Part shown: positions 2,748-28,977 of the stretch, one piece after another
Layout of the letters: every line of letters starts with the position of its first letter
Numbering within the stretch: position 1 is the first letter of the stretch
Origin: Microbacterium salitolerans
GTDB lineage: Bacteria > Actinomycetota > Actinomycetes > Actinomycetales > Microbacteriaceae
Direction: 5' to 3'
Length of the DNA: 64,000 bases
Assembly (NCBI RefSeq): GCF_019720895.1
Contig: NZ_JAHKSH010000005.1
Location: 335,711 to 399,710 of the forward strand
Translations under genes and position numbers: made by a program
Notes under the pieces: generated by a model
Told to the model about the DNA's origin: nothing
Database searches by the model: none
The model's input: the letters and a program-made list of their open reading frames with translations, nothing else

Positions 2748-4046
2748 TCAGGATCCGGCGTAGCCCTGCGGTGCCGACTCGACGCTCGGGTAGAGCGGGA
2801 AGGCATCGGCGAGCTTCTGGACGCGCGCCCGCAGCGCGGGGATGTCGGCACCCGGCAGCAGGACCCGCGCGATGACGTCGGCGACCTCGGCGAACTCCTC
2901 GTCGCCGAATCCGCGCGTGGCGAGCGCCGGCGTGCCGATGCGCAGCCCCGACGTGACCATCGGCGGGCGCGGGTCGTTCGGCACCGAGTTGCGGTTGACC
3001 GTGATCTGCACCTCGTGCAGGAGATCCTCCGCCTCCTTGCCGTTGATCGCGGCGTCGCGCAGGTCGACCAGCACGAGGTGCACATCGGTGCCGCCCGAGC
3101 GCAGCGTGACGCCCGCGTCGGCGACGTCCTGCTGCAGCAGACGCTCCGCCAGGATCTGCGCGCCGCGCACGGTGCGCTTCTGGCGGTCGGCGAACTCCTC
3201 GGTGGCCGCGAGCTTGAAGGCGGTGGCCTTCGCCGCGATCACGTGCATGAGCGGTCCGCCCTGCTGACCGGGGAACACGGCGGAGTTGATCTTCTTCGCG
3301 ACCGCCTCGTCGTTCGTCAGGATGAAGCCCGAGCGCGGCCCGCCGATCGTCTTGTGCACGGTCGACGAGACGACGTGCGCGTGCGGGACGGGGTTCGGGT
3401 GGATCCCCGCGGCGACGAGCCCCGCGAAGTGCGCCATGTCGACCCACAGGTACGCGCCCACCTCGTCGGCGATGCGCCGGAACTCGGCGAAGTCGAGCTG
3501 GCGCGGGTACGCCGACCAGCCGGCGATGATCACCTTCGGCTTGTGCTCGTGGGCGAGGCGGCGCACCTCGTCCATGTCGACGAGCGACGTCTCGGCGTCG
3601 ACGCCGTACGCGACGATGTCGTAGAGGCGGCCGGAGAAGTTGATCTTCATGCCGTGCGTCAGGTGACCGCCGTGGTCGAGCGACAGCCCGAGCACCGTGT
3701 CACCCTGGCGGGCGATCGCGTGGAGGACGGCGGCGTTGGCCGAGGCGCCGGAGTGCGGCTGGACATTCGCGAACTCGGCGCCGAACAGGCTCTTGGCTCG
3801 CTCGATCGCGAGGTTCTCCGCGACGTCGACCTCCTCGCAGCCGCCGTAGTAGCGACGCCCGGGGTAGCCCTCGGCGTACTTGTTCGTGAGAACGGATCCC
3901 TGCGACTGCAGAACCGAGACCGGGACGAAGTTCTCGGAGGCGATCATCTCGAGGAAGCCGCGCTGCCGGTCGAGCTCGCGCTGCAGGACCTGCGCGATCT
4001 CGGGGTCGACCTCGGTGAGGGGGGCGTTGAAGAGGGAATCGGTCAT
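2748..4046 (-). CDS. glyA: Serine hydroxymethyltransferase
   Basis: GlyA is a PLP enzyme that transfers the serine hydroxymethyl group to THF, giving glycine and 5,10-methylene-THF. The 432-residue sequence shows the PLP site [16 protein letters not shown] with the Schiff-base lysine at K232, the N-terminal SENFV motif and YYGGCEEVD. The length is that of the family. The ATG is preceded by GGAGCACGC. It is the first gene of a glyA-folD unit, with a candidate ZTP riboswitch in its leader and a recognisable promoter, so expression should rise when 10-formyl-THF is scarce. Confidence 0.97.
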
Positions 4047-4090
4047 GCGTGCTCCAGAACGACGTGGGCGGTGCTCGGGGTGATCGCTTC

Positions 4091-4170
4091 GGCCCAGGCG
4101 CGCGGCCGAATGCCGTTCTCAGGTGCCGCTCCCCGGTGGTCTTCCACCTCGGGCGCCAGTCGCGACGCGT
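4091..4170 (-). ncRNA. Candidate ZTP (pfl motif) riboswitch in the glyA leader
   Basis: On the minus strand the leader contains the blocks I associate with the pfl/ZTP aptamer in order: CGCGACTGGCG, then a GAGGTGG..CCACCGGGGAGC hairpin, then a 3' CGCGCCTGGGC. ZTP riboswitches sense the purine intermediate ZTP/ZMP and switch on one-carbon genes, commonly glyA, folD and purH; here the downstream genes are glyA and folD. The aptamer starts about four to ten bases after the predicted -10 and ends about 45 bases before the glyA ATG. The assignment rests on remembered consensus blocks, not on a covariance model. Confidence 0.75.
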
Positions 4171-4173
4171 CCG

Positions 4174-4202
4174 ATCATACCGGTTGCGCATCGCGCTCTC
4201 GA
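4174..4202 (-). promoter_or_regulatory. Promoter of glyA-folD
   Basis: A strong -10 TATGAT (4174-4179) lies 17 bases from a TCGAGA -35-like hexamer (4197-4202, four of six matches to TTGACA). Transcription would start near 4167, right at the 5' edge of the candidate riboswitch. Confidence 0.6.
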
Positions 4203-4274
4203 GGACGGGTGTTCACGATTACGATGTTGAGCAGCTGGGCGACACCCGCCCCGCGTTCCGAGGGGAGAGAACTC

Positions 4275-4676
4275 ATGACCCGCACTCGACAGGCCATGAC
4301 GCTCGCTGCCGTCGCCGCCTCCGCGCTCCTGCTCGCCGGCTGCGCGTCCGCGAACTCCGCTGGTGGGACCGACGGCGAGGCCGTCGACGCCGACGCACTC
4401 GTCGGCGCCACGTACGCCAGCTCGGAGGAGGGCGAGCCGCAGCTCACCTTCGCCGACGACGGCACCTACACGGGCACGGACGGCTGCAACGGTCTCCAGG
4501 GCGAGTACGAGATCACCGACGATGAGATCGTCCTCGACCCCGGCATCTCGACGCTCAAGGCCTGCGAGGGGGTCGACACGTGGCTCCGCGACGCGAAGAC
4601 GCTTCAGGTCGATGGCGACGCGATGGTCGTGTTCGACAGCTCCGACGCCGAGATCGGCACACTCGCGCTCGACTGA
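4275..4676 (+). CDS. META-domain lipoprotein
   Basis: A 133-residue secreted lipoprotein. The signal peptide ends in the lipobox LLLAGC with the acylated cysteine at C23, followed by one small META-like domain containing DGTYTGTDGCNGLQGEYEI and a paired cysteine in STLKACEGVD. META (HslJ-like) domains are found in envelope-stress proteins; a specific function is unknown. ATG 4275 has a GGGGAG ribosome site. A close paralogue without a signal peptide lies at 9493, and both flank the two S1 proteases. It is convergent with the first protease and ends in a strong hairpin. Confidence 0.8.
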   Translation: MTRTRQAMTLAAVAASALLLAGCASANSAGGTDGEAVDADALVGATYASSEEGEPQLTFADDGTYTGTDGCNGLQGEYEITDDEIVLDPGISTLKACEGVDTWLRDAKTLQVDGDAMVVFDSSDAEIGTLALD

Positions 4677-4694
4677 GCAGCGCCGCACGACGAC

Positions 4695-4729
4695 GCGGCC
4701 CGCGGATCCTCAGAGGATCCGCGGGCCGC
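4695..4729 (+). terminator. Intrinsic terminator after the META lipoprotein gene
   Basis: A perfect 15-17 bp GC-rich inverted repeat (GCGGCCCGCGGATCCT and its complement) has almost no loop and is followed by TTTCT. It begins 18 bases after the stop codon. Confidence 0.8.
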
Positions 4730-4758
4730 TTTCTCGTCTGCGCATGCGCCGGCGAACG

Positions 4759-4804
4759 CCGCTGGGGCGGGACGTCCTCACACGAGGACGTCCCGCCCCA
4801 GCGG
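4759..4804 (-). terminator. Terminator of the first S1 protease gene
   Basis: A perfect 21 bp stem with an ACAC loop lies 17 bases beyond the protease stop. The outer part (CCGCTGGGGCGGG) is repeated at the terminator of the second protease (7152-7196), so the terminator seems to have been duplicated with the gene. Confidence 0.75.
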
Positions 4805-4820
4805 GTCACTCACTGATGCG

Positions 4821-6959
4821 TCAGGCGCGAATCGCGCGACGCACCGCCAGCAGGATGCCACCGGCGAGCAGCGCCACTGCGGCGCCGCCGGCGAGCGGCA
4901 GCATCATGCTCATGTCGGCACCCGTTGCGGGGAGCTCGTCACCGGGCTGCTCCGGCGCGGGAGCCGGCGCGGGCTCCTCGTCGCTGCCGCCGTTGCCCGG
5001 CTCCTCGCCGCCGCCGCCGTTACCCGGCTCCTCGGGAGCGGGAGTCGGCTCGGGCGTGGGCTCGGGGCTCGGGGCGGGCTCCTCAGCCACGACGACCTCG
5101 AAGGTCGCCTCGGACGCGGCGCTCGAGACGCCGGCCGTCGACTGCGTCGCCGTCACCGTGTAGGTGCCGGGAGCGAGCTGCGCGTCGAAGTCGACCATCC
5201 ACGTGCCGCCGACGACCTCGGTGTCACCGACCTCGGCGAACGCCTCGAGCTGCGCCTCGGTGGCGTTGTCGCCCTCGATCGAGACGTCGACCATCGCGCC
5301 CTCGATGCCGGACTCGCCGATGACGGCGGGAAGCTGACCCTCGACGTAGCTGCCGCCGTTCTCGGGCGTCACAATGCTCGGGGCACCGGGAACGACCTGG
5401 AACGACACCCAGCGGGCCTCAGACTCGACGCCCATGCGGGACTGCGTGACGCCGACCGTGTAGGCGCCGAAGCCGAGCTCGGTCTCGACCGACCACGTGC
5501 CGTCCTTCTTGACGGTGGTCGAGCCCTCGGCGTCGCCCTTGAGCGCGATCGTCGCACCGGCGTCGCCGGTGCCCGTGATCTCGGTGATCACATCGGTGGT
5601 GGTGAGCTCGTTCTCGGGGCTCGTGATGCCAGGAGCATCGACCGTGATCTGGCTGGTCTTGACCGTGGCGTTCACCTTGTCGGAGACGTTGTAGCCCTGC
5701 TTCGCGACGAGCGAGATGTCGAACGAACCGACCTCACGGGGCGCCTGGAACGTGAACTCGCCGTTCGCGTCGGCCTTCGCCGTCGCGGTGATGTCACCCG
5801 AGATCGTGACGGTCGAGCCCGCGGGAGCGGTGCCCGTGTAGGTGCCGCCGCGCGTGACCGTCTTCTTCGAGACGCCCGGCTCGGCCAGGTCGAGCATGAC
5901 CTGGTACTCGCCCGCGCCCTGATCCGCTGCGACCTGGAGGCCGTGCTGGAGATCCGTGTACCAGAGGTAGTCACCCGACGCGCTGCCACCGCTCGTGACG
6001 CCGACGGCCTCGGTGCCCTGAACGACGGAGCCGCCCGAGTCACCCCCGAGGACAAGGGGCTCGGAGCCGGTCTGCTCGGCACCGTATCCCTTCACCCAGC
6101 GGTTGCTGACGGACATCCAGCCCTCTTCGATGACGACGCCTGTCTGGCGACCCGTCGTGCGACCGCTGCGCTCGATCTGCTCGCCGATCTCGGCGGTGCC
6201 GACCGACTCGACCTTGGTGGTCGACGCTGCCAGGTCGTCGCTTCCTGCCGTCGTCCAGTCGGTGACCTCGGGGCGCAGCGTCAGCGCACCGCTGATGTCG
6301 TCGATGATCGAGATGTCGGTCGACGTCGCGCCGCCCTCGGAGCCATCGGAGTTGCCCGGGCCGCCGTACTGCGAGAAGCCGAACGTGCCGAGCGCATCCA
6401 TCGGAACGAAGCCGGGACCGCCGACAGCCTGCTCCTCGGAGGGAACCGAGCGGTACACGTCCGTGATCGATCCGTCGTTCGCGCAGTGCCCGGCCGAGAT
6501 CAGCGCGGGCTCACCCTGCGGGGACCATGCCGAGAACCCGAGCGAGCACGTGTAGAGCGACCCGGGCTCGGACGGGTCCTCCATGACGTAGCCGGCGCCG
6601 CCGACGACCTCATCCTGTGCCGCGGACACCAGCTGCTCTGCGTCGGTGTCGACCACGACGTTGTCGTACGTCGCCTCGAGCTTCTTCGCCGAGGCCACGG
6701 ATGCCGACGTCGCGACGAGCCCGCCGTCACCCTCCGCGCCTTCTTCCAGCGTCGAGACGGTGATGATGCCGTCCGCATCGACCGTGACGCCGACGACGCC
6801 CTCGATCTGCATGGCTTCGACCGCGACCTCGTCGAGCGTCGCGTTCTTCGGCGCGGTCTCGGCTGCGGCGGCGGGCGCGACGATGAGCGCGCTTGCGGCG
6901 AGTGCCGCGGCGGCGCCGGCGGCGCCCAAGCGGATCCCTCGTGTGATTGTGGAGCTCAA
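4821..6959 (-). CDS. Secreted, wall-anchored S1-family serine protease with Ig-like repeats (LPATG)
   Basis: This 712-residue protein starts with a signal peptide (cleavage near AAA-AET, residue 33), then a pro-region and a streptogrisin-like chymotrypsin fold with H158 (SAGHC), D215 (DISIID) and S308 (GGDSGGS), plus the family RSGRTTG segment. After residue about 370 come Ig-like adhesin repeats (GSFDISLVAKQGYNVS, PGITSPEN), a Pro/Glu/Gly-rich wall spanner and a C-terminal LPATG, membrane segment and RR tail, the sortase signal. It is probably an extracellular surface protease. The start is TTG with GGAGAGGA upstream. A paralogue follows at 7213; the Ig-like parts are nearly identical, the protease parts less so. 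Confidence 0.88.
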   Translation of the reverse strand: MSSTITRGIRLGAAGAAAALAASALIVAPAAAAETAPKNATLDEVAVEAMQIEGVVGVTVDADGIITVSTLEEGAEGDGGLVATSASVASAKKLEATYDNVVVDTDAEQLVSAAQDEVVGGAGYVMEDPSEPGSLYTCSLGFSAWSPQGEPALISAGHCANDGSITDVYRSVPSEEQAVGGPGFVPMDALGTFGFSQYGGPGNSDGSEGGATSTDISIIDDISGALTLRPEVTDWTTAGSDDLAASTTKVESVGTAEIGEQIERSGRTTGRQTGVVIEEGWMSVSNRWVKGYGAEQTGSEPLVLGGDSGGSVVQGTEAVGVTSGGSASGDYLWYTDLQHGLQVAADQGAGEYQVMLDLAEPGVSKKTVTRGGTYTGTAPAGSTVTISGDITATAKADANGEFTFQAPREVGSFDISLVAKQGYNVSDKVNATVKTSQITVDAPGITSPENELTTTDVITEITGTGDAGATIALKGDAEGSTTVKKDGTWSVETELGFGAYTVGVTQSRMGVESEARWVSFQVVPGAPSIVTPENGGSYVEGQLPAVIGESGIEGAMVDVSIEGDNATEAQLEAFAEVGDTEVVGGTWMVDFDAQLAPGTYTVTATQSTAGVSSAASEATFEVVVAEEPAPSPEPTPEPTPAPEEPGNGGGGEEPGNGGSDEEPAPAPAPEQPGDELPATGADMSMMLPLAGGAAVALLAGGILLAVRRAIRA

Positions 6960-7212: not shown

Positions 7213-9234
7213 TCAGGCGCGGACCGCGCGGCGCAGCGCGAGGAGCGCTCCACCTGCGAGCAGTGCGACTGCGGCGCCACCGGCGAGCGGCAGCATCGAA
7301 TTCATGTCGGCACCCGTCGCGGCGAGCTCATCATCGTCTCCGCCGCCTTCACCGGGCTGCTCGCCACCGCCGTTGCCGTCACCCGGCTCCTCGGAGGCGG
7401 CCACGACATCGAACGTCGCCGAAGCGGCGGCGCTGGTGACACCAGCCGTCGACTGCGTCGCCGTCACCGTGTAGGTGCCGGGAGCGAGCTGCTCGTTGAA
7501 GTCGACCATCCACGTGCCGCCGACGACCTCGGTGTCGCCGACTGCGTCGAGCGCCTCGAGCTGCGCCTCGGTGAGGTTGTCGCCCTCGATCGAGACGTCG
7601 ACCATCGCGCCCTCGATCCCCGATTCGCCGACCACCGAAGGAAGCTGGCCCTCCTCGTAGGTGCCGCCGTCTTCAGGCGTCGCGATGCTCGGCGCACCGG
7701 GAACGACCTGGAACGAGACCCAGCGGGCCTCCGACTGCACACCCTTGAACTCCTGCGTCACGCCGACCGTGTAGGCGCCGAAGCCGAGCTCGGTCTCAAC
7801 CGACCACGTGCCGTCGTCAGCGACCATCGCGGTGCCCTCGGCATCGCCCTGCAGCATGACCGTGGCGCCGGGCTCGCCGGTTCCGGTGATCGCGGTGACG
7901 ACCTCGGTCGTGCTCATCTCGTTCTCGGGGCTGGTGATCCCCGGGGCGTCGACGGTGATCTCGCTGGTCTTGACCGTGGCGTTCACCTTCTCGGACACGT
8001 TGTAGCCCTGCTTCGCGACCAGTGAGATGTCGAATGAGCCGACCTCGTTCGGCGCGGGGAACGAGAAGTATCCGCTGTCGTCCGCGGGAACCTCGGCCTC
8101 GATGTCTCCGGTGATGGTGACCATCGAGTTCGCCGGTGCCGAACCGGTGAAGGATCCGTCGCGCTCCGTCATGTCGCGCTCGACGGCCGGCTCGGCGATG
8201 TCGAGCATGACCTGGTAGTCGCCGACCGCTCCGCGGATCTGGTCGAGTCCGAGATCGAGGTCAGCCCACCAGGAGTAGCCCTCGATGCCGCCCGACAGAA
8301 CGCCCATCGCGGCACCGTTCGAGATCGCCGATCCACCCGAGTCACCCGGGATCGTCGTGATCTGGGCACCGAAGCCCTTGACGATGCGGTCCTCGACCAT
8401 GACGTAGCCCTCGTCGTAGACCTCGCTCTCGGCGTAGCCCGTCGTGCGTCCACTGCGCTGAAGCGGGTCGCCCGGCGCGGCGTTCTTGACACCCGTGATC
8501 GGCTGCGACGATGCGAACAGGTCGTTCTGCGAGGCCGTCGACCAGTCGGTCATGCGCGGCTTGAGCGTGAGGTTCTCATTCGTGACATCGAACACCGCGA
8601 TGTCGGTGAGGGGCTCGGAGGTGTCCTGCGACGTCGAGTTGCCCGGACCGCCGAACTGCGCGAACGCGAGGCTGCCGAGGTCCTTCCAGATCACGCCGCC
8701 CTCGCCGCCGTTGGCGGGGTCGGTCGCGGGCTCGGTGAGGTAGCTCGTCGTGTACGCGCCGTCACCCGTGCAGTGACCGGCCGAGATGTAGGCCGGGTCG
8801 CCGTTCGGCGACCATGCCGGGAAGCCGATCGAGCAGTAGCCGCCCTCGCCCGCGTCGTTGAAGGACGCGTAGCCCTGGCCGCCGACGACGTCGTTCTCGC
8901 CGAACGCCTTGATCGCCTCGGGCAGCTGCTGGACCGCGACATTCGAGTACTGCTGGGCGATGGCCTCGGCGGAGGTCGCATCGGCGGAGTACGGCTTGAT
9001 GCCGCCCTCTCCGGCGTCCCCCTCAGGAACCGTCTTGATGAGGATCTGGCTGCCATCCGTTGTGACGGCCTGGACGCCCGCCGCGTCGAAGGCGACGGCG
9101 GCGATCTCATCGAGGGTCGCCGGAGCGCCGCCCTCTTCTGCCATCGCAGGTGTGACGAGCAGCGCGCCTGCGGCGAGTGCCGCGGCGGCGCCGACAGCAC
9201 CCAAGCGGGCGCTTCGTGTGAATGTGGAGCTCAA
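7213..9234 (-). CDS. Secreted S1-family serine protease with Ig-like repeats (LAATG anchor)
   Basis: A 673-residue paralogue of the preceding protease: signal peptide (TPAMA), chymotrypsin-like domain with H154 (SAGHC), D211 (TDIAVFD) and S299 (PGDSGGS), then the same Ig-like repeats and a shorter Gly-rich spacer. The C-terminal sorting signal is LAATG rather than LPATG, followed by a hydrophobic stretch and an RR tail. LAxTG is the type recognised by class E sortases in high-GC Gram-positives, so the two paralogues may use different sortases. I chose the TTG at 9234 (AGGGGAAG upstream, aligned with the sister start) over an ATG at 9291 that would place 19 charged residues before the signal peptide. 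Confidence 0.87.
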   Translation of the reverse strand: MSSTFTRSARLGAVGAAAALAAGALLVTPAMAEEGGAPATLDEIAAVAFDAAGVQAVTTDGSQILIKTVPEGDAGEGGIKPYSADATSAEAIAQQYSNVAVQQLPEAIKAFGENDVVGGQGYASFNDAGEGGYCSIGFPAWSPNGDPAYISAGHCTGDGAYTTSYLTEPATDPANGGEGGVIWKDLGSLAFAQFGGPGNSTSQDTSEPLTDIAVFDVTNENLTLKPRMTDWSTASQNDLFASSQPITGVKNAAPGDPLQRSGRTTGYAESEVYDEGYVMVEDRIVKGFGAQITTIPGDSGGSAISNGAAMGVLSGGIEGYSWWADLDLGLDQIRGAVGDYQVMLDIAEPAVERDMTERDGSFTGSAPANSMVTITGDIEAEVPADDSGYFSFPAPNEVGSFDISLVAKQGYNVSEKVNATVKTSEITVDAPGITSPENEMSTTEVVTAITGTGEPGATVMLQGDAEGTAMVADDGTWSVETELGFGAYTVGVTQEFKGVQSEARWVSFQVVPGAPSIATPEDGGTYEEGQLPSVVGESGIEGAMVDVSIEGDNLTEAQLEALDAVGDTEVVGGTWMVDFNEQLAPGTYTVTATQSTAGVTSAAASATFDVVAASEEPGDGNGGGEQPGEGGGDDDELAATGADMNSMLPLAGGAAVALLAGGALLALRRAVRA

Positions 9235-9492
9235 GCGCTTCCCCTTTTCCGAGGCGACCAGGGTCGCCGTCTCAACATGTGATTGCAACATGCCCGAGCG
9301 GGAAGACCCAGCAGATTCCTAGCTCCCCCAACAGACACAGCATGCTCACGATACAAAAAATCCGGATAGATTGGGAAAAAATCTCTGAACAGCCGATGAC
9401 GGGACAGCGACGCCGGCACGCGCTTCCCTGAGAATCCGCGGACAGATCGACGTAAACTGAAATTTTTTCTACACCTGTCTTGCGAGGGATCC

Positions 9493-22070: not shown

Positions 22071-22757
22071 TCAGTCGGTCAGCGCGAGGGCGCGGTAGGC
22101 GTCGCGCGTCGCCTCACGGAGCATCGCCTGCTCGCGCGGTGAGAGATCGCCCTGCGGGATCGACTGCCCCGTCGTGAGCCGGTAGAGCTCGTCGATGAGC
22201 TCGGTCGCCATGCCGACGAGCTGATCGATCGCCGTATCGTCGCGGTCGATCCACACGAACTTCGGCTCGTCGTGAAGCGGGCGGAAGTCGCGGTGCTCCT
22301 CCCACGCGAACAGGGTGCGCTCGGCGCCGAGCACATGCTGCTGCCACCACACCTGGCGGAGGTAGTGGCGCGGGATGGTGCGCCACGGCTTGTTCGTCGT
22401 CTTGATCTCGGCGAGCACCACGCAGCCGTCTTCCTGCTGCAGGATGCCGTCGGGCGTCGCGAGGTGGCGCTTCTCGATCTCGGCACGGAACAGCACCGTC
22501 GAGGGCAGGATCCCGTGCTCCTTCTCGACCCACGCCGCGATCTCAGGCTCACGGCGACGTCCGTGATCCGTATAGGCGTTGCCCGAGAAGCCGGAGGGGC
22601 GGAGCTTCTGCTTCGCCGCGCGCTGGATCGATGCGGGGGTCGAGAGGTGGGCGACGTCGGTCGCGGTGACGCCCTGCGAGCGGGCCCGCATCCACGCCAC
22701 GCGATCACGCGAATCGGCGACGATCCGGGCTTCGAGTTCTGGCGTGAGCATCCTCAT
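22071..22757 (-). CDS. YqaJ-like nuclease/recombinase domain protein
   Basis: A 228-residue protein resembling the YqaJ family of lambda-exonuclease-like phage recombination nucleases. The PD-(D/E)xK core is visible as PDGIL (D), then VVLAEIKTTNKPW (E and K), with an upstream HGRRREPEIAAWVEKEHGI segment. Start choice is uncertain: ATG 22757 and ATG 22751 are both possible and neither has a good ribosome site. Phage YqaJ usually has a RecT partner; none is here. It is divergent from the MFS gene and has ordinary GC content, so it looks resident. Confidence 0.7.
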   Translation of the reverse strand: MRMLTPELEARIVADSRDRVAWMRARSQGVTATDVAHLSTPASIQRAAKQKLRPSGFSGNAYTDHGRRREPEIAAWVEKEHGILPSTVLFRAEIEKRHLATPDGILQQEDGCVVLAEIKTTNKPWRTIPRHYLRQVWWQQHVLGAERTLFAWEEHRDFRPLHDEPKFVWIDRDDTAIDQLVGMATELIDELYRLTTGQSIPQGDLSPREQAMLREATRDAYRALALTD

Positions 22758-22811
22758 GAGACTAGCCGAGCCGCGCTGAGAGCCCCGGAGCGACGCGAGG
22801 GATCCCTTTGG

Positions 22812-22855
22812 TTGCCAAACATCAACCATCTGTGTATAGTTGACGATCGTCAACT
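22812..22855 (+). promoter_or_regulatory. Promoter and palindromic operator of the MFS-marR operon
   Basis: TTGCCA (22812-22817), a 17-base spacer and TATAGT (22835-22840) form a near-consensus promoter. The perfect 18-base palindrome AGTTGACGATCGTCAACT (22838-22855) overlaps the -10 and start site. MarR proteins bind such palindromes, and a MarR gene ends this operon, so autorepression is likely. Confidence 0.75.
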
Positions 22856-22914
22856 TTTCTGCGCGACAGCGTCGCCGCGCTCCCCTCCCCTCCTCTCTTC
22901 CCGGAAGGATGCGC

Positions 22915-24594
22915 GTGAGCACTCACACCACCACCGTCTCCGCACACATGTCGCGTCGCCAGGTGCTCGAGGCCCTCTCGGGCCTGCTGCTGGCGATGTT
23001 CTGCTCGATGATCTCGATGACAGTCGTCGGAACGTCGCTTCCGATCATCGTCCCCGAGCTCGGCGGATCCCAGACCTCGTACACCTGGGTCGTCACCATG
23101 ACCCTGCTGACGACCGCGATCTCGACCCCCATCTGGGGCAAGCTCGCCGATCTCACGAACCGCAAGGTTCTGATGCTCGTCGCGCTGACGATCTTCGTGC
23201 TCGCGAGCGCGGGTGCAGGTCTGAGCCAGAACGTCGAGATGCTCATCTTCTTCCGCGCGCTGCAGGGCATCGGCGGCGGCGGGCTCCAGGCCCTCAGCCA
23301 GATCCTCATGGCCGACATCATCAGCCCGCGCGAGCGCGGCAAGTACATGGGACTCTTCGCCGGCGTCATGGCGGTCGGCACGGTCGGCGGCCCCCTGCTC
23401 GGCGGCCTCCTCACCGACACGGTCGGCTGGCGGTGGAACTTCTACGTCGGCGTCCCGCTCGGGATCATCGCGTTCGCGGTGATCATGCGCACGCTGCGCA
23501 TCGAACAGCACCGCAAGGGCAAGGTGCGGATCGACTACCTCGGCATCGCGCTGCTGAGCATCTCCGCCGGCTTCCTCCTCGTCTGGATCACGAACGTCTC
23601 CGACTACGGCTGGGCCAGCTGGGAGACGCTCTACATGGTCGGCATCGGCGTCGTCGCGGCGATCGTGTTCGTGCTCGTCGAGATGCGCGTCGCGGAGCCG
23701 CTCATCCCGATGTCGCTCTTCCGCAACCGCACGTTCTCGCTCGCGGTCCTCGCGTCCATCTCGATCGGCGTGTCCATGTTCGGCACGGCCATCTACCTCA
23801 GCCAGTACCTGCAGATCGCACGCGGCTTCGGCCCGACCGAGGCCGGTCTCCTGACGATCCCCATGGCCGTCGGGATGCTCGGATCCTCGACCATCGTCGG
23901 CCAGCTCGTCACACGCACGGGCACTTGGAAGCGCTACCTCGTCACGGGCGCCGTCCTGATGATCGCGGGCACGTCGCTGCTGTCCACCCTGCGCGTCGAC
24001 ACCCCGCTCTGGCTCGTGTGCGTCTACATGTTCCTGCTGGGGGCCGGGACCGGCATGACGATGCAGAACCTCGTGCTCGTCGTGCAGAACTCCGCGAACC
24101 CCGCGCAGATGGGCGTCTCGAGCTCCGGCGTGAACTTCTTCCGCTCGGTCGGGGGCACGGCCGGTGTGGCGATCATGGGGTCCGTCCTCGCGGCGAGCAT
24201 GACGCAGCAGATGACGGATCGTGCGGCGGAGGTCGGCCAGGCGATCGCCTCGCTCGGCGCGAAGGGCCAGGCGGTCGCGAAGCAGCTCGCGGCCGGCTCG
24301 CTCCCGACCACCCGGGACATGCCGCAGCAGATCGCGATGATCATCGAAGAGGTCGCGGCGAACTCGATCTCCCACGCGTTCCTGGTCGGGGTGCCGCTCG
24401 CCGTCCTGAGCCTGATCGCGATCGCGTTCCTGCCGAACGCCTCGCTTCACCGCCAGACGACCGTCGAACGCCTCCGCGAGCAGAACGCGAATGACAGCGG
24501 ATATGCTGATGCGGCCGCCGTCGCGACCGCGTCGACGGGCTCCGTGCCGATCATCACGGACGACGCCCAGGTGACGGAGGAGCGCCGCTCATGA
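22915..24594 (+). CDS. DHA2-family MFS drug efflux transporter
   Basis: A 559-residue protein with about 14 predicted membrane segments, typical of EmrB/QacA-type proton-driven multidrug exporters. Visible motifs include the motif A equivalent GKLADLTNRKVL and motif C-like GPLLGGLLTD. GTG 22915 was chosen because GGAAGGA lies six bases upstream; a more upstream ATG would put the start in the operator. Its stop overlaps the MarR start (ATGA), giving an operon with its likely repressor. Substrates are unknown. Confidence 0.9.
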   Translation: MSTHTTTVSAHMSRRQVLEALSGLLLAMFCSMISMTVVGTSLPIIVPELGGSQTSYTWVVTMTLLTTAISTPIWGKLADLTNRKVLMLVALTIFVLASAGAGLSQNVEMLIFFRALQGIGGGGLQALSQILMADIISPRERGKYMGLFAGVMAVGTVGGPLLGGLLTDTVGWRWNFYVGVPLGIIAFAVIMRTLRIEQHRKGKVRIDYLGIALLSISAGFLLVWITNVSDYGWASWETLYMVGIGVVAAIVFVLVEMRVAEPLIPMSLFRNRTFSLAVLASISIGVSMFGTAIYLSQYLQIARGFGPTEAGLLTIPMAVGMLGSSTIVGQLVTRTGTWKRYLVTGAVLMIAGTSLLSTLRVDTPLWLVCVYMFLLGAGTGMTMQNLVLVVQNSANPAQMGVSSSGVNFFRSVGGTAGVAIMGSVLAASMTQQMTDRAAEVGQAIASLGAKGQAVAKQLAAGSLPTTRDMPQQIAMIIEEVAANSISHAFLVGVPLAVLSLIAIAFLPNASLHRQTTVERLREQNANDSGYADAAAVATASTGSVPIITDDAQVTEERRS

Positions 24595-25052
24595 CGGAGC
24601 CGCAGGGCCACGAGCACGACGCGATCCGTGCGCTCGAGGCCGAGTTCTCGGATCTGCTCGCGCGCTTCCGAACGATCATCCACGACACCGCGGAGCGCGT
24701 GAGCCCCGGCCTGATGCCCGGCTCGTACAAGATCTTCACGCTCATCGACCGTCATGGCCCGCTCACCGCCTCATCCATCGCCGAGATGCTGCGGGTCGAC
24801 AAGGGGCACCTCAGCCGCATGGTGCGCGAACTTGAGTCGCTCGAGCTCGTCGTGCGCACGCCCGATCCCGACGACGGCCGTGCGCACCTGCTCTCGGCGA
24901 CCGATTCGGGGCGAGAGAAGCTCGAGGAGGCGCGCGCCGGTCGCGACAGCTCCCTGGAACTGACGCTGTCGCGCTGGCCGCTGTCGGACATCGAGCGTCT
25001 CACTCAGCTGATCCACGCCCTCACGAACGACGAAGTGCCTCCGGTCGAGTGA
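24591..25052 (+). CDS. MarR family transcriptional regulator
   Basis: A 153-residue dimeric winged-helix repressor with the helix-turn-helix SIAEMLRVDKGHLSRMVRELESL and wing region RTPDPDDGRAHLLSATDSGREKL. It overlaps the exporter gene by four bases and probably binds the 18-base palindrome at 22838-22855. The usual logic is that a toxic ligand releases the repressor and turns on efflux. Its stop codon lies directly next to the stop of the convergent gene at 25053, with no room for a terminator. Confidence 0.9.
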   Translation: MTEPQGHEHDAIRALEAEFSDLLARFRTIIHDTAERVSPGLMPGSYKIFTLIDRHGPLTASSIAEMLRVDKGHLSRMVRELESLELVVRTPDPDDGRAHLLSATDSGREKLEEARAGRDSSLELTLSRWPLSDIERLTQLIHALTNDEVPPVE

Positions 25053-25598
25053 TCAGGCGTCGGGATTCGGGCACTGGATCCCGGTGAGCAGCGGCAGGGT
25101 GACCTGGACGGTCTTCTGCTGCGCCGACTGCCACGGCGCCGTTCCGGGGGTCCACACGGTGCGCACCGTCACGGGGAAGCTCGTTCCGAACAGGTCGGTG
25201 ATGCTTCCGAGGATCTGCTGCAGGACGTTCCCCGTGAATCGCGTCGTGTAGACGCCGTTGGACGGTCCCGAATGCGTCGCCGTCGCGATCGTGCCGTTGA
25301 TGCGCCACTGCGTATTCGCCGCCGTCAGGTTCGGATACGGCCGCCCCGTGCCCGGCCATCGCCACTGCACGGTGAGGAACGGCTGGCCGAGGTTCAGCAG
25401 CGTCGGGCGCTGGCAGCTCGTCGACGCGATGACGGGCGGCTGCAGCACGACCGTCCCCAACTGTGACGAGGCACTGTGCTCGACGTCGGTGAACGCCGCG
25501 TCGGTGGCCTGCGGATCGGCCCCCTCGCCGAACGCGAAGACCAGGGCGGAGACGGACACTGCGGCGACGGCGATGAGACGGCGGACACGCGCTCTCAC
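25053..25598 (-). CDS. Secreted protein of a SipW/TasA-like operon (unknown function)
   Basis: A 181-residue protein with an N-terminal hydrophobic export segment (VRRLIAVAAVSVSALVFAF), then the mature sequence with two cysteines (TSCQRP and IQCPNPDA) near the start and C-terminus. The segment TDAAFTDVEHSASSQLGTV resembles the post-signal region of TasA-type proteins, so it may be an atypical SipW substrate. It starts at GTG 25598, four bases before the upstream stop, with GGAGGTG as ribosome site. It is the last gene of the five-gene operon. Its role, perhaps as a fibre cap or adhesin, is speculative. Confidence 0.65.
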   Translation of the reverse strand: MRARVRRLIAVAAVSVSALVFAFGEGADPQATDAAFTDVEHSASSQLGTVVLQPPVIASTSCQRPTLLNLGQPFLTVQWRWPGTGRPYPNLTAANTQWRINGTIATATHSGPSNGVYTTRFTGNVLQQILGSITDLFGTSFPVTVRTVWTPGTAPWQSAQQKTVQVTLPLLTGIQCPNPDA

Positions 25599-26275
25599 TG
25601 GGCACCTCCCCGCGTGCGGCGGCGCGCCAGGAGCGCCGTGCCGATGCCGCACAGCACGGCGGCGAGGCCGAGCCCGCCCGACCAGGACAGGTCGGCGCCC
25701 GTGACCGCGAGATCGTCCTCGTCGTCATCGGGTGGCGACGCGGGCTCGTCGTCGGGCGGTTCCGACGGGTCGGGCGGCCCGGAATCGATCTCCTCGCCGA
25801 ACCCCTCCGCCACGATCCGGATATCTGTCGAGGCGTTCTGCGGCACGGGATCGGGCGCCTCGACGGTCACGTGCAGGTGCGCGACGCCGCTCGCGGCGGC
25901 GGATACGAGATGCACACGCGAGCCGTCGAGGGGGCCGGGCGCAGCGGGGTGGAGGACGGTCTCCCCCGCGGCGCAGACGCCATCCTGCCACGCGACCTCG
26001 CACCGCGAGACGGCGACCTTCACGGCGAGTTCGCCCCGCCCCTCCAGCAGGACGTCGATCCGGCCCGGTGACGGAGCGTCCGCGCTGACCTCGAGCGTCC
26101 AGCCGATGCGCTCGCCGTTCGCCAGGCTCCCCGCCGCCTCGTGGTCGAGCGTGGAGACGATCCGGAGGTGCTCGCCTTCGATTGTCCGCGACGACGGGTC
26201 GGCGGACGCCGCCACCGGAAGTGCGACGAGCGCCGCCGCGAGCGCCGCTGCGAACATCAGTCGCCGGGCGGTCAC
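25595..26275 (-). CDS. Surface protein with LAVTG sorting signal
   Basis: A 226-residue protein with a signal peptide (ending VAASA), an all-beta-looking body with paired cysteines (SRCEVAWQDGVC), an acidic Pro/Asp spacer (PSEPPDDEPASPPDDDEDD) and a C-terminal LAVTG, hydrophobic segment and RRRTRGG tail. That layout is a sortase substrate of the LAxTG class. GTG 26275 has GGGAGGG and overlaps the SipW stop by four bases. It probably anchors the fibre-like proteins of the operon to peptidoglycan; this is inferred from context. Confidence 0.75.
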   Translation of the reverse strand: MTARRLMFAAALAAALVALPVAASADPSSRTIEGEHLRIVSTLDHEAAGSLANGERIGWTLEVSADAPSPGRIDVLLEGRGELAVKVAVSRCEVAWQDGVCAAGETVLHPAAPGPLDGSRVHLVSAAASGVAHLHVTVEAPDPVPQNASTDIRIVAEGFGEEIDSGPPDPSEPPDDEPASPPDDDEDDLAVTGADLSWSGGLGLAAVLCGIGTALLARRRTRGGAQ

Positions 26276-26835
26276 GGGGCGCCCTCCCTCGCGAGCGGTC
26301 GCGACTTCTCGTCGTCGAGCTTCTCTGCGCGCGGCCAGAACGCCCAGCCAACGAGCACTCCCGCGGCGATCGTGATGCCGCCGAGTACGTACGGATTGCT
26401 GAACCACACGATGATCGGCGCGAGCCCCGGAATCGCGAAGAGCACCGTGCGCACGCCGGTCACGGCGTACGGATGCGGGTCGTCCGACGCGTTCGCGTCC
26501 CCGCGCATCGTGATCACGCGCTCCGCGTCGATGCTCCCCTCCTCGATGCTCGTCACCCGGTGGGTCACGGGGAGCTGCTCATCGCGATCCACCGTGACGA
26601 TGTCGCCGACGTCGATCTCCGCCGCCGGCACGTGCTTCACGATCGCAACGGACCCCGCGGGGATCGTCGGCGCCATGGACCCCGTTCGGAACATCATCAG
26701 CGTGATGTCGAACGCCCACGCGAGCACGACGAGCGCGATGCACACCAGGCCGCCGACCGCCGCGAACCAGAGAAGGACCTCGCCCGCGACCCTCGCGACA
26801 CGGGGCTTCTCGCGTCTCGCATGCTGCATCGTCAT
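26272..26835 (-). CDS. sipW: Signal peptidase I, SipW (ER) type
   Basis: A 187-residue membrane peptidase that cleaves signal peptides. The nucleophile S53 lies in FRTGSMAPTIPAG, directly after a membrane segment. The general base position is a histidine, H92 (PVTHRV), not the usual lysine, which marks the SipW/ER subfamily that processes TasA-like substrates. A second membrane segment lies at the C-terminus. ATG 26835 with CGGAGC was chosen over a GTG five codons upstream. It sits between the two probable substrates (26852, 27474) and the wall-anchored protein. Confidence 0.88.
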   Translation of the reverse strand: MTMQHARREKPRVARVAGEVLLWFAAVGGLVCIALVVLAWAFDITLMMFRTGSMAPTIPAGSVAIVKHVPAAEIDVGDIVTVDRDEQLPVTHRVTSIEEGSIDAERVITMRGDANASDDPHPYAVTGVRTVLFAIPGLAPIIVWFSNPYVLGGITIAAGVLVGWAFWPRAEKLDDEKSRPLAREGAP

Positions 26836-26851
26836 CTCGGCGCTCCGCACG

Positions 26852-27472
26852 TCACGTCACGGACTGAGCATTCACGGTCCAGCGCGCCGTGACCGTCTGC
26901 CCCTGCGCCGCGTTGCCCGTCGTGGCCGGCATCGTCACGGCGAAGCAGTAGGTCACGACGTTGCCCGCCGCCGCCTGGAGCTGCTGCGCCGCGGTGGCGC
27001 CTGTGGTGAGCGAAGAGCCGGTCGCGACGATCTTCGGCGCGGCGGCGAACGTGGTCGCGTTGCAGGTCGTGCCCGTGATCACAGCGACGCCGTACTGCAG
27101 GAACGCCCCCAGCCCTGTCCCATTCTCGGTCGCGGCCCCGAGAGTCGCCTGCCCGGCGACCGACGAGGCCGTCGTGCGCACGCTGAACGGCGCGTACACC
27201 GTGTCGCCCGGCGCCATGGCTCCCGGGGTCACCTGAAACGACAGCGCGGCCGCCTGGCCGCTCGAGGCATGCTCGGTGAAGGTGGTCCCGTCCGTTGCGC
27301 CCACGATCCCGAAGGTTCCTGCGGTGAACGTCGCCGTGGTGTGCTCCTGATCCGTCCACGCGGCAAGTGTCGCCGCCGCGCCGACGCCGAGGACGAGCCC
27401 GCCCGCGAGGAGCGCGCGCACGCGCCTCAGGAGAAGCGACCGGGAGCGACGTGCCTGCTCCCTCTTCGCCAT
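26852..27472 (-). CDS. TasA-like protein with SipW-type signal peptide (second copy)
   Basis: A 206-residue exported protein. The N-terminus has basic residues, then LLAGGLVLGVGAAATLAAWTDQEHTTATFTAGTF, the alternate signal and post-cleavage region that marks SipW-dependent TasA/CalY-like proteins. Two cysteines (TGTTCNAT, VTYCFAV) could form a disulfide. In Bacillus, TasA forms biofilm fibres after SipW cleavage; that function is assumed here by similarity of layout. It lies one base from the upstream paralogue and 16 bases before the sipW start. Confidence 0.82.
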   Translation of the reverse strand: MAKREQARRSRSLLLRRVRALLAGGLVLGVGAAATLAAWTDQEHTTATFTAGTFGIVGATDGTTFTEHASSGQAAALSFQVTPGAMAPGDTVYAPFSVRTTASSVAGQATLGAATENGTGLGAFLQYGVAVITGTTCNATTFAAAPKIVATGSSLTTGATAAQQLQAAAGNVVTYCFAVTMPATTGNAAQGQTVTARWTVNAQSVT

Positions 27473-27473
27473 C

Positions 27474-28103
27474 TCAGCTCGCGTCGTCCGAGGTCGCCTG
27501 GAACTCCCACGTCGCCGTCGCCGTCGCCCCCTGCGTCAGCTCTTCCGAAGCTTCGACGGCGAAGCAGAGGTGCACGGGGACTCCCGCGACGGCCGTGTCG
27601 TCGTCATGGACGAGGTCGGCAGTCGCGGCGGCCGCCGTGTTCTCGTCGAGCCCGGCGCCCGTGCCGAGCACCGTTCCTGCGGCGATCGTGGTGGCGTCGC
27701 ACGTCTCGCCGACGCCGATGGCCGCCACATCGTACGCGTACTCCGCCACGTCTCCCGTGCCGGTGATGCCGTTCATCGCCAGCGTCCCCGAGACCGTCGT
27801 CGGTGCGTCGACGCGCACGAAGAACGAGTCGTAGGCGATCTCGCCCGGCACCATGCTCGAGGTGTCGGCGACGTACTCGACGGTGTCGAGCTGCTGGGCG
27901 GTCGCGGCCGTGTCGTGCTCGGCGTACGCGTCGGTCCCGCCGTTGTCGAGGGATCCCTCGATGTTGAAGGATCCGGCCGCGAACGTTCCTGTCGCGAACT
28001 CGGAGTCGTTCCAATTCGCCAGTGTGATGGCGGCTCCGACGCCGACGACGGTGCCGCCGGCGAGGACCGCAAGGATCTTGCGACGTGTGGTGGTAGTGGC
28101 CAT
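27474..28103 (-). CDS. TasA-like protein with SipW-type signal peptide (first copy)
   Basis: A 209-residue exported protein with signal segment ILAVLAGGTVVGVGAAITLANWNDSEFATGTFAAGSF and two cysteines (GETCDAT, VHLCFAV) aligned with those of the paralogue downstream. It is the first gene of the operon, so it may be the major fibre subunit. ATG 28103 has GGGGA upstream; an ATG at 28115 is an alternative. A 180-base gap including the rplA terminator separates it from rplA, so it likely has its own promoter, which I could not locate with confidence. Confidence 0.83.
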   Translation of the reverse strand: MATTTTRRKILAVLAGGTVVGVGAAITLANWNDSEFATGTFAAGSFNIEGSLDNGGTDAYAEHDTAATAQQLDTVEYVADTSSMVPGEIAYDSFFVRVDAPTTVSGTLAMNGITGTGDVAEYAYDVAAIGVGETCDATTIAAGTVLGTGAGLDENTAAAATADLVHDDDTAVAGVPVHLCFAVEASEELTQGATATATWEFQATSDDAS

Positions 28104-28224
28104 GTGAGTCCCCATACTCTCGGCAAGCAGTCCGGCACGGTCGTGCGACCGCGATATCTCGGTAGAGAGACTGTCAGTCATCGACGGGACACACAAGAGG
28201 TTCGCCGAGGGGTACCGGGAACGA

Positions 28225-28259
28225 CGAACGCCCCGTCGCACAGGGCGACGGGGCGTTCG
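28225..28259 (-). terminator. Terminator of rplK-rplA
   Basis: CGAACGCCCCGTCGC (28225-28239) and its complement (28245-28259) form a perfect 15 bp stem with a short loop, starting 20 bases after the rplA stop. Confidence 0.8.
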
Positions 28260-28278
28260 AGGAACCCGGAGGGCTGAC

Positions 28279-28977
28279 TCAGACGGCGGCTGCGATCGAG
28301 CTGACGTCGAGCGGGATGCCGGGACCGAACGTGGTCGACACCGTGCCCTTCTGGATGTAGCGACCCTTGGCGCTGGCCGGCTTCAGACGGACGACCTCGT
28401 CGAGGGCGGCCGCGATGTTCTCGTCGAGCTTGTCGAGGTCGAACGAGGACTTGCCCACGATGAAGTGCAGGTTGGCGTGCTTGTCGACGCGGAAGTCGAT
28501 CTTGCCGCCCTTGATCTCCTCGACCGCCTTGGCGGGGTTCGGGGTGACCGTTCCCGTCTTGGGGTTCGGCATGAGACCACGGGGGCCGAGGACCTTGCCG
28601 AGGCGTCCGACCTGACCCATGAGCTCCGGAACGGCGACAGCCGCGTCGAAGTCGGTCCAGCCGTCGGCGACGCGCTGGATGAGCTCGGCGCCGCCGACCT
28701 CGTCCGCACCCGCGGCGATCGCGGCCTCAGCGGCCGGCCCGTTCGCGAACACGATGACCTTGGCGGTCTTGCCCGTGCCGTGCGGGAGCATGACGGTGCC
28801 GCGCACCATCTGGTCGGCCTTGCGCGGGTCGACTGCGAGCTTCAGCGCGACCTCGACGGTCGAGTCGAACTTCTTCGAGCCGGTCTCCTTGGCGAGCGCG
28901 ACGGCCTCGGTGGGCGTGTAGAACTTGCCCTCTTCGAGCTTCGCGACCGCGGCGGTGTAAACCTTGGACTTTGCCAT
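28279..28977 (-). CDS. rplA: 50S ribosomal protein L1
   Basis: A 232-residue protein of the L1 stalk, which helps move the E-site tRNA and binds its own mRNA as a translational repressor in many bacteria. The signature [22 protein letters not shown] is intact and the length is normal. It starts 13 bases after rplK, so the two are one unit. The gene ends in a clear terminator. Confidence 0.98.

Follow-up and report, generated by a model that had tools for sequence, protein, structure and literature searches.

A SipW/TasA-like operon with a putative sortase-anchored wall protein in Microbacterium salitolerans

Gene content of the operon

The locus described here is a five-gene operon of Microbacterium salitolerans. 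It lies in a stretch of 64,000 nucleotides (assembly GCF_019720895.1, contig NZ_JAHKSH010000005.1, positions 335,711 to 399,710), which is referred to as the window. Five minus-strand genes, designated A, B, Sip, D and E, fill positions 25053-28103 and touch or overlap each other (Table 1). A and B as well as B and Sip are separated by 1 nucleotide (nt), and 4-nt overlaps are found at Sip/D and D/E. Coordinates and gene content agreed with an earlier sequence-only reading, in which five overlapping or nearly touching genes had been described. Most likely, the operon represents a version of the TasA/SipW system, known for thin protein fibres in Bacillus biofilms, in which a wall anchor has been added.

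Table 1. Features of the operon and its upstream border, in window coordinates.
Feature	Position	Strand	Evidence
A: TasA-like secreted subunit, SipW-type signal, 209 residues	27474..28103	-	TIGR04088, Foldseek
B: second TasA-like subunit, SipW-type signal, 206 residues	26852..27472	-	TIGR04088, alignment with A
Sip: SipW-like Ser/His signal peptidase, 192 residues	26272..26850	-	TIGR02228, motifs
D: predicted wall protein, GTG start	25595..26275	-	Sequence, structure model, Sip fusions in relatives
LAVTG sorting motif of D	25697..25711	-	Translation
E: secreted, weak SipW-type N-terminus, two conserved Cys; candidate TapA-like nucleator	25053..25598	-	N-terminal profile
Possible terminator of rplA: inverted repeat in the rplA-A gap	28215..28269	-	Arm complementarity

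TasA-like subunits and their signal peptidase

For signal classification, A and B were compared with TIGR04088, a model of SipW-dependent signals, and scored 27.2 and 39.7 bits, respectively (cut-off 19). B aligned with A over its full length, and both share a Cys pair that was retained in at least 90% of 42 A/B sequences. Neither protein ends in a sorting signal (no LPxTG). Because the gathering score of Peptidase_M73 (PF12389; 22.5) was missed (12.0 bits for B, no match for A), A and B are called TasA-like and not members of the TasA/camelysin family.

For fold comparison, a predicted structure of A (m4e1a3aa8f734), the one of the two subunits that was modelled, was searched with Foldseek. 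The TasA fibre 8aur ranked first (E 7.8e-4, probability 0.99), which assigns the model to the TasA jelly-roll fold. In the VIA list for A, nine of the 20 top rows were TasA or pilus/filament subunits (7ueg, 5of2, 5of1, four FimG, CsuA/B and 7pnb), and most others were virus capsid proteins. TasA was reached by the fold search with A alone; PDB sequence searches with A/B, D and E profiles gave no relevant match. The proposed SipW/TasA-like nature of the operon, with SipW-type signals and matching Cys pairs in two proteins, was borne out by these results.

Sip scored 58.9 bits against TIGR02228 (Ser/His type, cut-off 51.85). Its catalytic serine lies in a GSM motif and its histidine in a THR motif, where typical bacterial signal peptidases have a lysine, and the expected Ser/His in place of Ser/Lys was present. 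GSM, HR and GDAN were retained in 118 of 121 related loci. Against the Bacillus SipW equivalog model NF046067 only 38.6 bits were obtained (cut-off 190). By its motifs and scores, Sip is classed as SipW-like and not as a Bacillus SipW equivalog.

Wall protein D and the class E sortase

D comprises an ordinary Sec-type signal, an immunoglobulin (Ig)-like beta-sandwich domain and a C-terminal region in which the predicted acidic spacer and LAVTG were found, followed by a hydrophobic segment and a basic tail. The structure model of D (mfa821f4a50a4; predicted local distance difference test score 85.5) matched beta-sandwich proteins, and its sandwich is weakly like a basal pilin. As to whether D might itself be TasA-like, no TasA chains were among the 50 Foldseek rows and 50 VIA rows listed for D. 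Comparison of the A/B core profile with that of D gave an E value of 0.0014, but a probability of 17.6%.

LAxTG is the motif of class E sortases. The sole PF04203 match of the genome is a class E sortase (NF033747, 221.8 bits, cut-off 160); a class C sortase was not detected in the genome. D just missed NF058582 (25.9 bits, cut-off 27). In D-bearing genomes without class E sortase, none of three D proteins had a canonical LA/LPxTG, compared with 30 of 37 elsewhere. On these grounds, D has the appearance of a substrate for class E sortase, with predicted linkage to the wall.

Two large surface proteins are encoded as neighbours on the minus strand of the window (4821-6959 and 7213-9291). Their C-termini passed TIGR01167 (20.7 and 18.2 bits, cut-off 15.9), and both are likely further substrates of the single class E sortase.

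Protein E as a TapA analogue

Neither NCBIfam nor Pfam gave a family above cut-off for E, which also fell short of TIGR04088. For N-terminal comparison, a profile of A/B N-termini was applied, with 1900 shuffled E N-termini as control. The best shuffle (7.8 bits) was exceeded by 17 of 19 E proteins and by one of 22 D proteins. When the profile was restricted to the 21 mature residues, 13/19 E proteins and 0/22 D proteins passed. The window's own E is weak: it exceeded the best shuffle with 9.0 bits for the full N-terminal profile and failed with -1.1 bits for the mature part. C62 and C176 were invariant across the 19 E sequences. When the E profile was used for a sequence search of the PDB, TapA was not found. 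E had previously been listed simply as a small secreted protein; the SipW-type N-terminus of its family, faint in the window copy, had been overlooked.

In the available text of the sources, Bacillus subtilis TapA is described as a substrate of SipW whose N-terminus resembles the TasA donor strand and whose Ig domain holds a disulphide bond; TapA is proposed to start the TasA filament (PMC10151520, PMC9674648). With the SipW-type signal and subunit-like mature start seen in most of its family, and with its two-cysteine domain, E appears to be a better match to TapA than D. The sequence-only reading had put a sortase-attached anchor in the place of TapA. The resemblance of D to a class E substrate supports a putative sortase-attached partner, whereas the TapA part is better matched by E. 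D would be an extra component, overlapping or fused to the signal peptidase.

Recurrence of the gene set

For comparison across genomes, three sets of loci were used. The genus set comprised 23 loci, namely the strongest Sip matches plus the two other Sip loci of the window genome. The family set comprised 18 loci chosen for a D match across the domain; 87 of 150 family genomes had matched, mostly by the sorting tail only. The named set comprised the best 80 of 259 relatives from a genome-collection scan with the Sip alignment and partially overlaps with the genus-set genomes. Earlier iterated profiles had drifted and merged A, B and E via their shared signal. Later tallies were made using profiles from alignments for A, D and E and an iterated profile for Sip.

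All five modules were found in 19/23 genus-set loci. Exceptions were L027 with E inverted, and L028 and L037 with a single A/B gene, L037 also without E. Besides the operon, the window genome carries a second cluster with diverged A, B, Sip and D genes but no detected E (L022, 3729-6245), and a lone SipW-like peptidase (L023, 4916-5476). In L027 (3080-5284), the operon looks disturbed in a genome without detected sortase: transposase-like frames lie alongside (judged by eye), and D is short at its N-terminus and carries LQPTG.

In the named set, at least one TasA-like gene was found in 79/80 loci, D in 75/80 (52 separate, 23 fused) and an E-like gene in 73/80, the latter by a weak criterion that in L193 rests on the N-terminus alone. 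Genera with D-bearing loci include Microbacterium, Agrococcus, Plantibacter, Leucobacter and Mycetocola, as well as Arthrobacter, Nesterenkonia, Paeniglutamicibacter and Nakamurella. A system confined to one family had been suggested when 296 genomes of the phylum were searched with the D profile, as almost only tail matches were obtained outside the family. This idea was dropped because of the D genes in the latter four genera. Among 30 phylum-wide TIGR04088 loci, a Sip-like frame together with a sorting-like tail was found in two (L114, L115), where they lie on opposite strands and do not convince; this was a rough pattern match in flanks of only about 1.5 kb. The same set of genes in the same order was found repeatedly, within the genus and outside it, which is more than chance.

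Fusion of Sip and D

Among the 121 Sip loci, 40 have Sip and D joined in a single open frame; counted by distinct Sip sequences, these are 35 of 109. Fusions were present in 6/23 loci of the genus set, 11/18 of the D-selected family set and 23/80 of the named set. A quick tree was built from the 109 distinct sequences, with weak support for 52/106 inner branches. On it, the separate or fused state changed seven times; well-supported branches alone require three changes of the fused label. In separate genus loci, the 4-nt Sip/D overlap was found by script in 14 of 16, and the window has the same arrangement from the GTG start of D.

An AxA site follows the hydrophobic segment and precedes D in 35/35 distinct fusions. 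In 1000 shuffles, a mean of 25.9 and a maximum of 33 of 35 were obtained, and none reached 35. Since the site is present in all fusions, D retains its own signal peptide within the fusion. This suggests a polyprotein that gets cut and not a permanent chimera. In a Zimmermannella faecalis record (L154, open reading frame 3980-5767), Sip, D and E share one frame of 596 residues, which continues past LPATG and the hydrophobic segment into E with a SipW-type site. It is a candidate triple polyprotein.

Genomic setting

The operon is positioned between rplA and rplJ and is set apart from rplKA by the inverted repeat, which has 25-nt arms with 84% complementarity, a perfect inner stem of 15 bp and a 5-nt loop. 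A separate transcript of the operon is likely because of this repeat, a stem without T run that was not called by the terminator scan. A scan of 24500-28600 for sigma-70-type promoters gave none, which is little informative for an actinobacterium. Near the operon in 18 other loci (L022, L025-L041), ribosomal genes were found in 7/18, MarR/MFS genes in 8/18 and YqaJ genes in 10/18. Ribosomal co-regulation was rejected in view of the inverted repeat before A and of ribosomal neighbours in 7/18 loci only. The position inside the ribosomal block, to which attention had been drawn, is real as a location; it is local synteny, incidental and without functional weight.

A YqaJ-domain gene, a major facilitator superfamily (MFS) exporter and a MarR regulator occupy window positions 22071-25052 and are often found beside the operon in relatives. 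The MarR gene and the E gene end on neighbouring bases in the window. A ZMP/ZTP riboswitch was detected at 4085-4173 of the minus strand (53.3 bits, gathering score 39).

Proposed assembly and alternatives

We consider it reasonably probable that the cassette is dedicated to export and assembly of a wall-anchored TasA-like fibre, in which the fibres, the wall linkage and the holding of the fibre by D are inferred. Judged by their signals, A, B and E would be trimmed by Sip. The freed N-terminal strands (A..W.D.E) would complete the sandwich of the next subunit by donor-strand exchange, as in TasA. E, with the same strand on a different domain, might start or cap the chain like TapA, a step for which the grounds are weaker. 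D would be cut at its own AxA site and then joined to peptidoglycan by the class E sortase. Its linkage to Sip suggests that D could hold or nucleate the fibre beside the peptidase. The Sip-D fusion, once Sip-D-E, may act as a polyprotein by which peptidase and anchor are produced jointly at the same place in the membrane. More tentatively, this polyprotein, cut by signal peptidases and sortase, could provide a donor-strand filament with its export gate, starter and wall anchor at a single site, a Gram-positive counterpart of the usher platform.

Several loci weigh against a strict requirement for D as anchor. In L146, L166 and L196, A, B, Sip and E are present, with E directly after Sip and D missing. 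L193 also lacks D and has another protein with a SipW-type N-terminus upstream of Sip. A class E sortase is present in all four of these genomes. The fifth named locus without D (L179) is truncated by a contig end. D is common but not obligatory.

The main rival to D serving the fibre is that D helps Sip. D would be an assembly factor in the envelope that stabilizes Sip or presents its substrates, and the wall link would only fix the site of secretion. The closest genetic tie of D is indeed to Sip, as seen from the fusions and 4-nt overlaps counted above, and a signal-peptidase homologue has been suggested as assembly chaperone of group A streptococcal pili in the accessible text of PMC7900414. 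We regard this explanation as unlikely, though one to be taken seriously. It is still less probable that A, B and E form no polymer and are secreted as soluble or loosely attached proteins such as camelysin-like enzymes or adhesins, with D as a separate surface adhesin. The similarity of A to the TasA fold is moderate, and secreted beta-sandwich proteins are plentiful; against this, the combination of TasA-like subunits, minor SipW substrate and dedicated peptidase is, in the parts of the literature available, that of a known filament operon, and TasA or pilus/filament subunits make up the nine VIA rows given above. A covalent, sortase-built pilus with D as pilin is highly improbable despite the sorting signal and weakly basal pilin-like sandwich of D, as A and B lack sorting signals and the sole sortase detected is class E, with no class C found.

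Comparison with known systems

Neither a TasA-like operon with a sortase-anchored partner in actinobacteria nor a fusion of signal peptidase and sortase-anchored protein was found among the open-literature matches listed, and no title on TasA homologues concerned actinobacteria. Searches of the open literature for Microbacterium with SipW gave nothing, and for camelysin with Actinobacteria only a Bacillus relative. The recurrence of the cassette suggests that TasA-like matrix fibres extend well into Actinomycetota.

The bundling pili of Pyrobaculum (7ueg), a structural match of A, are archaeal. The other statements on published systems follow the available text of the sources. Group A streptococcal pili share a signal-peptidase homologue (SipA/LepA) in the pilus operon, and their basal pilin is linked to the wall by the housekeeping sortase (PMC7900414). 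They differ in being covalent sortase polymers and in that SipA is without catalytic residues, whereas Sip keeps Ser and His. The repeated fusion of Sip and D hints at physical coupling of signal-peptide removal and anchoring. In Clostridium perfringens sipW-bsaABC, the SipW peptidase is needed for export and polymerization of the filament protein, and minor secreted proteins occur as well; the nearby sortase gene srtB is dispensable, and a wall-anchored partner is not described there (PMC7395162).

With tapA-sipW-tasA of B. subtilis and its donor-strand TasA fibres (PMC9674648, PMC10151520), the operon shares SipW-type signals, a dedicated peptidase, the TasA-like fold (A) and a minor protein that in most family members has a SipW-type, subunit-like N-terminus (E, as candidate TapA analogue). 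In contrast, there are two TasA-like subunits here, the LAVTG wall protein has no described counterpart, and the peptidase is often fused to it. The TasA/CalY/CapP system of B. cereus (PMC13082335) resembles the operon in its pair of TasA-like subunits, its processing by SipW and an accessory protein held at the wall, as is predicted for D. For the attachment of TasA-type donor-strand fibres to single-membrane cells, a solution that does not depend on sortase is described in B. cereus, with CapP retained in the wall by a disordered C-domain (PMC13082335), whereas D has a sortase signal, and the cassette suggests a covalent, genetically testable fibre attachment in actinobacteria.
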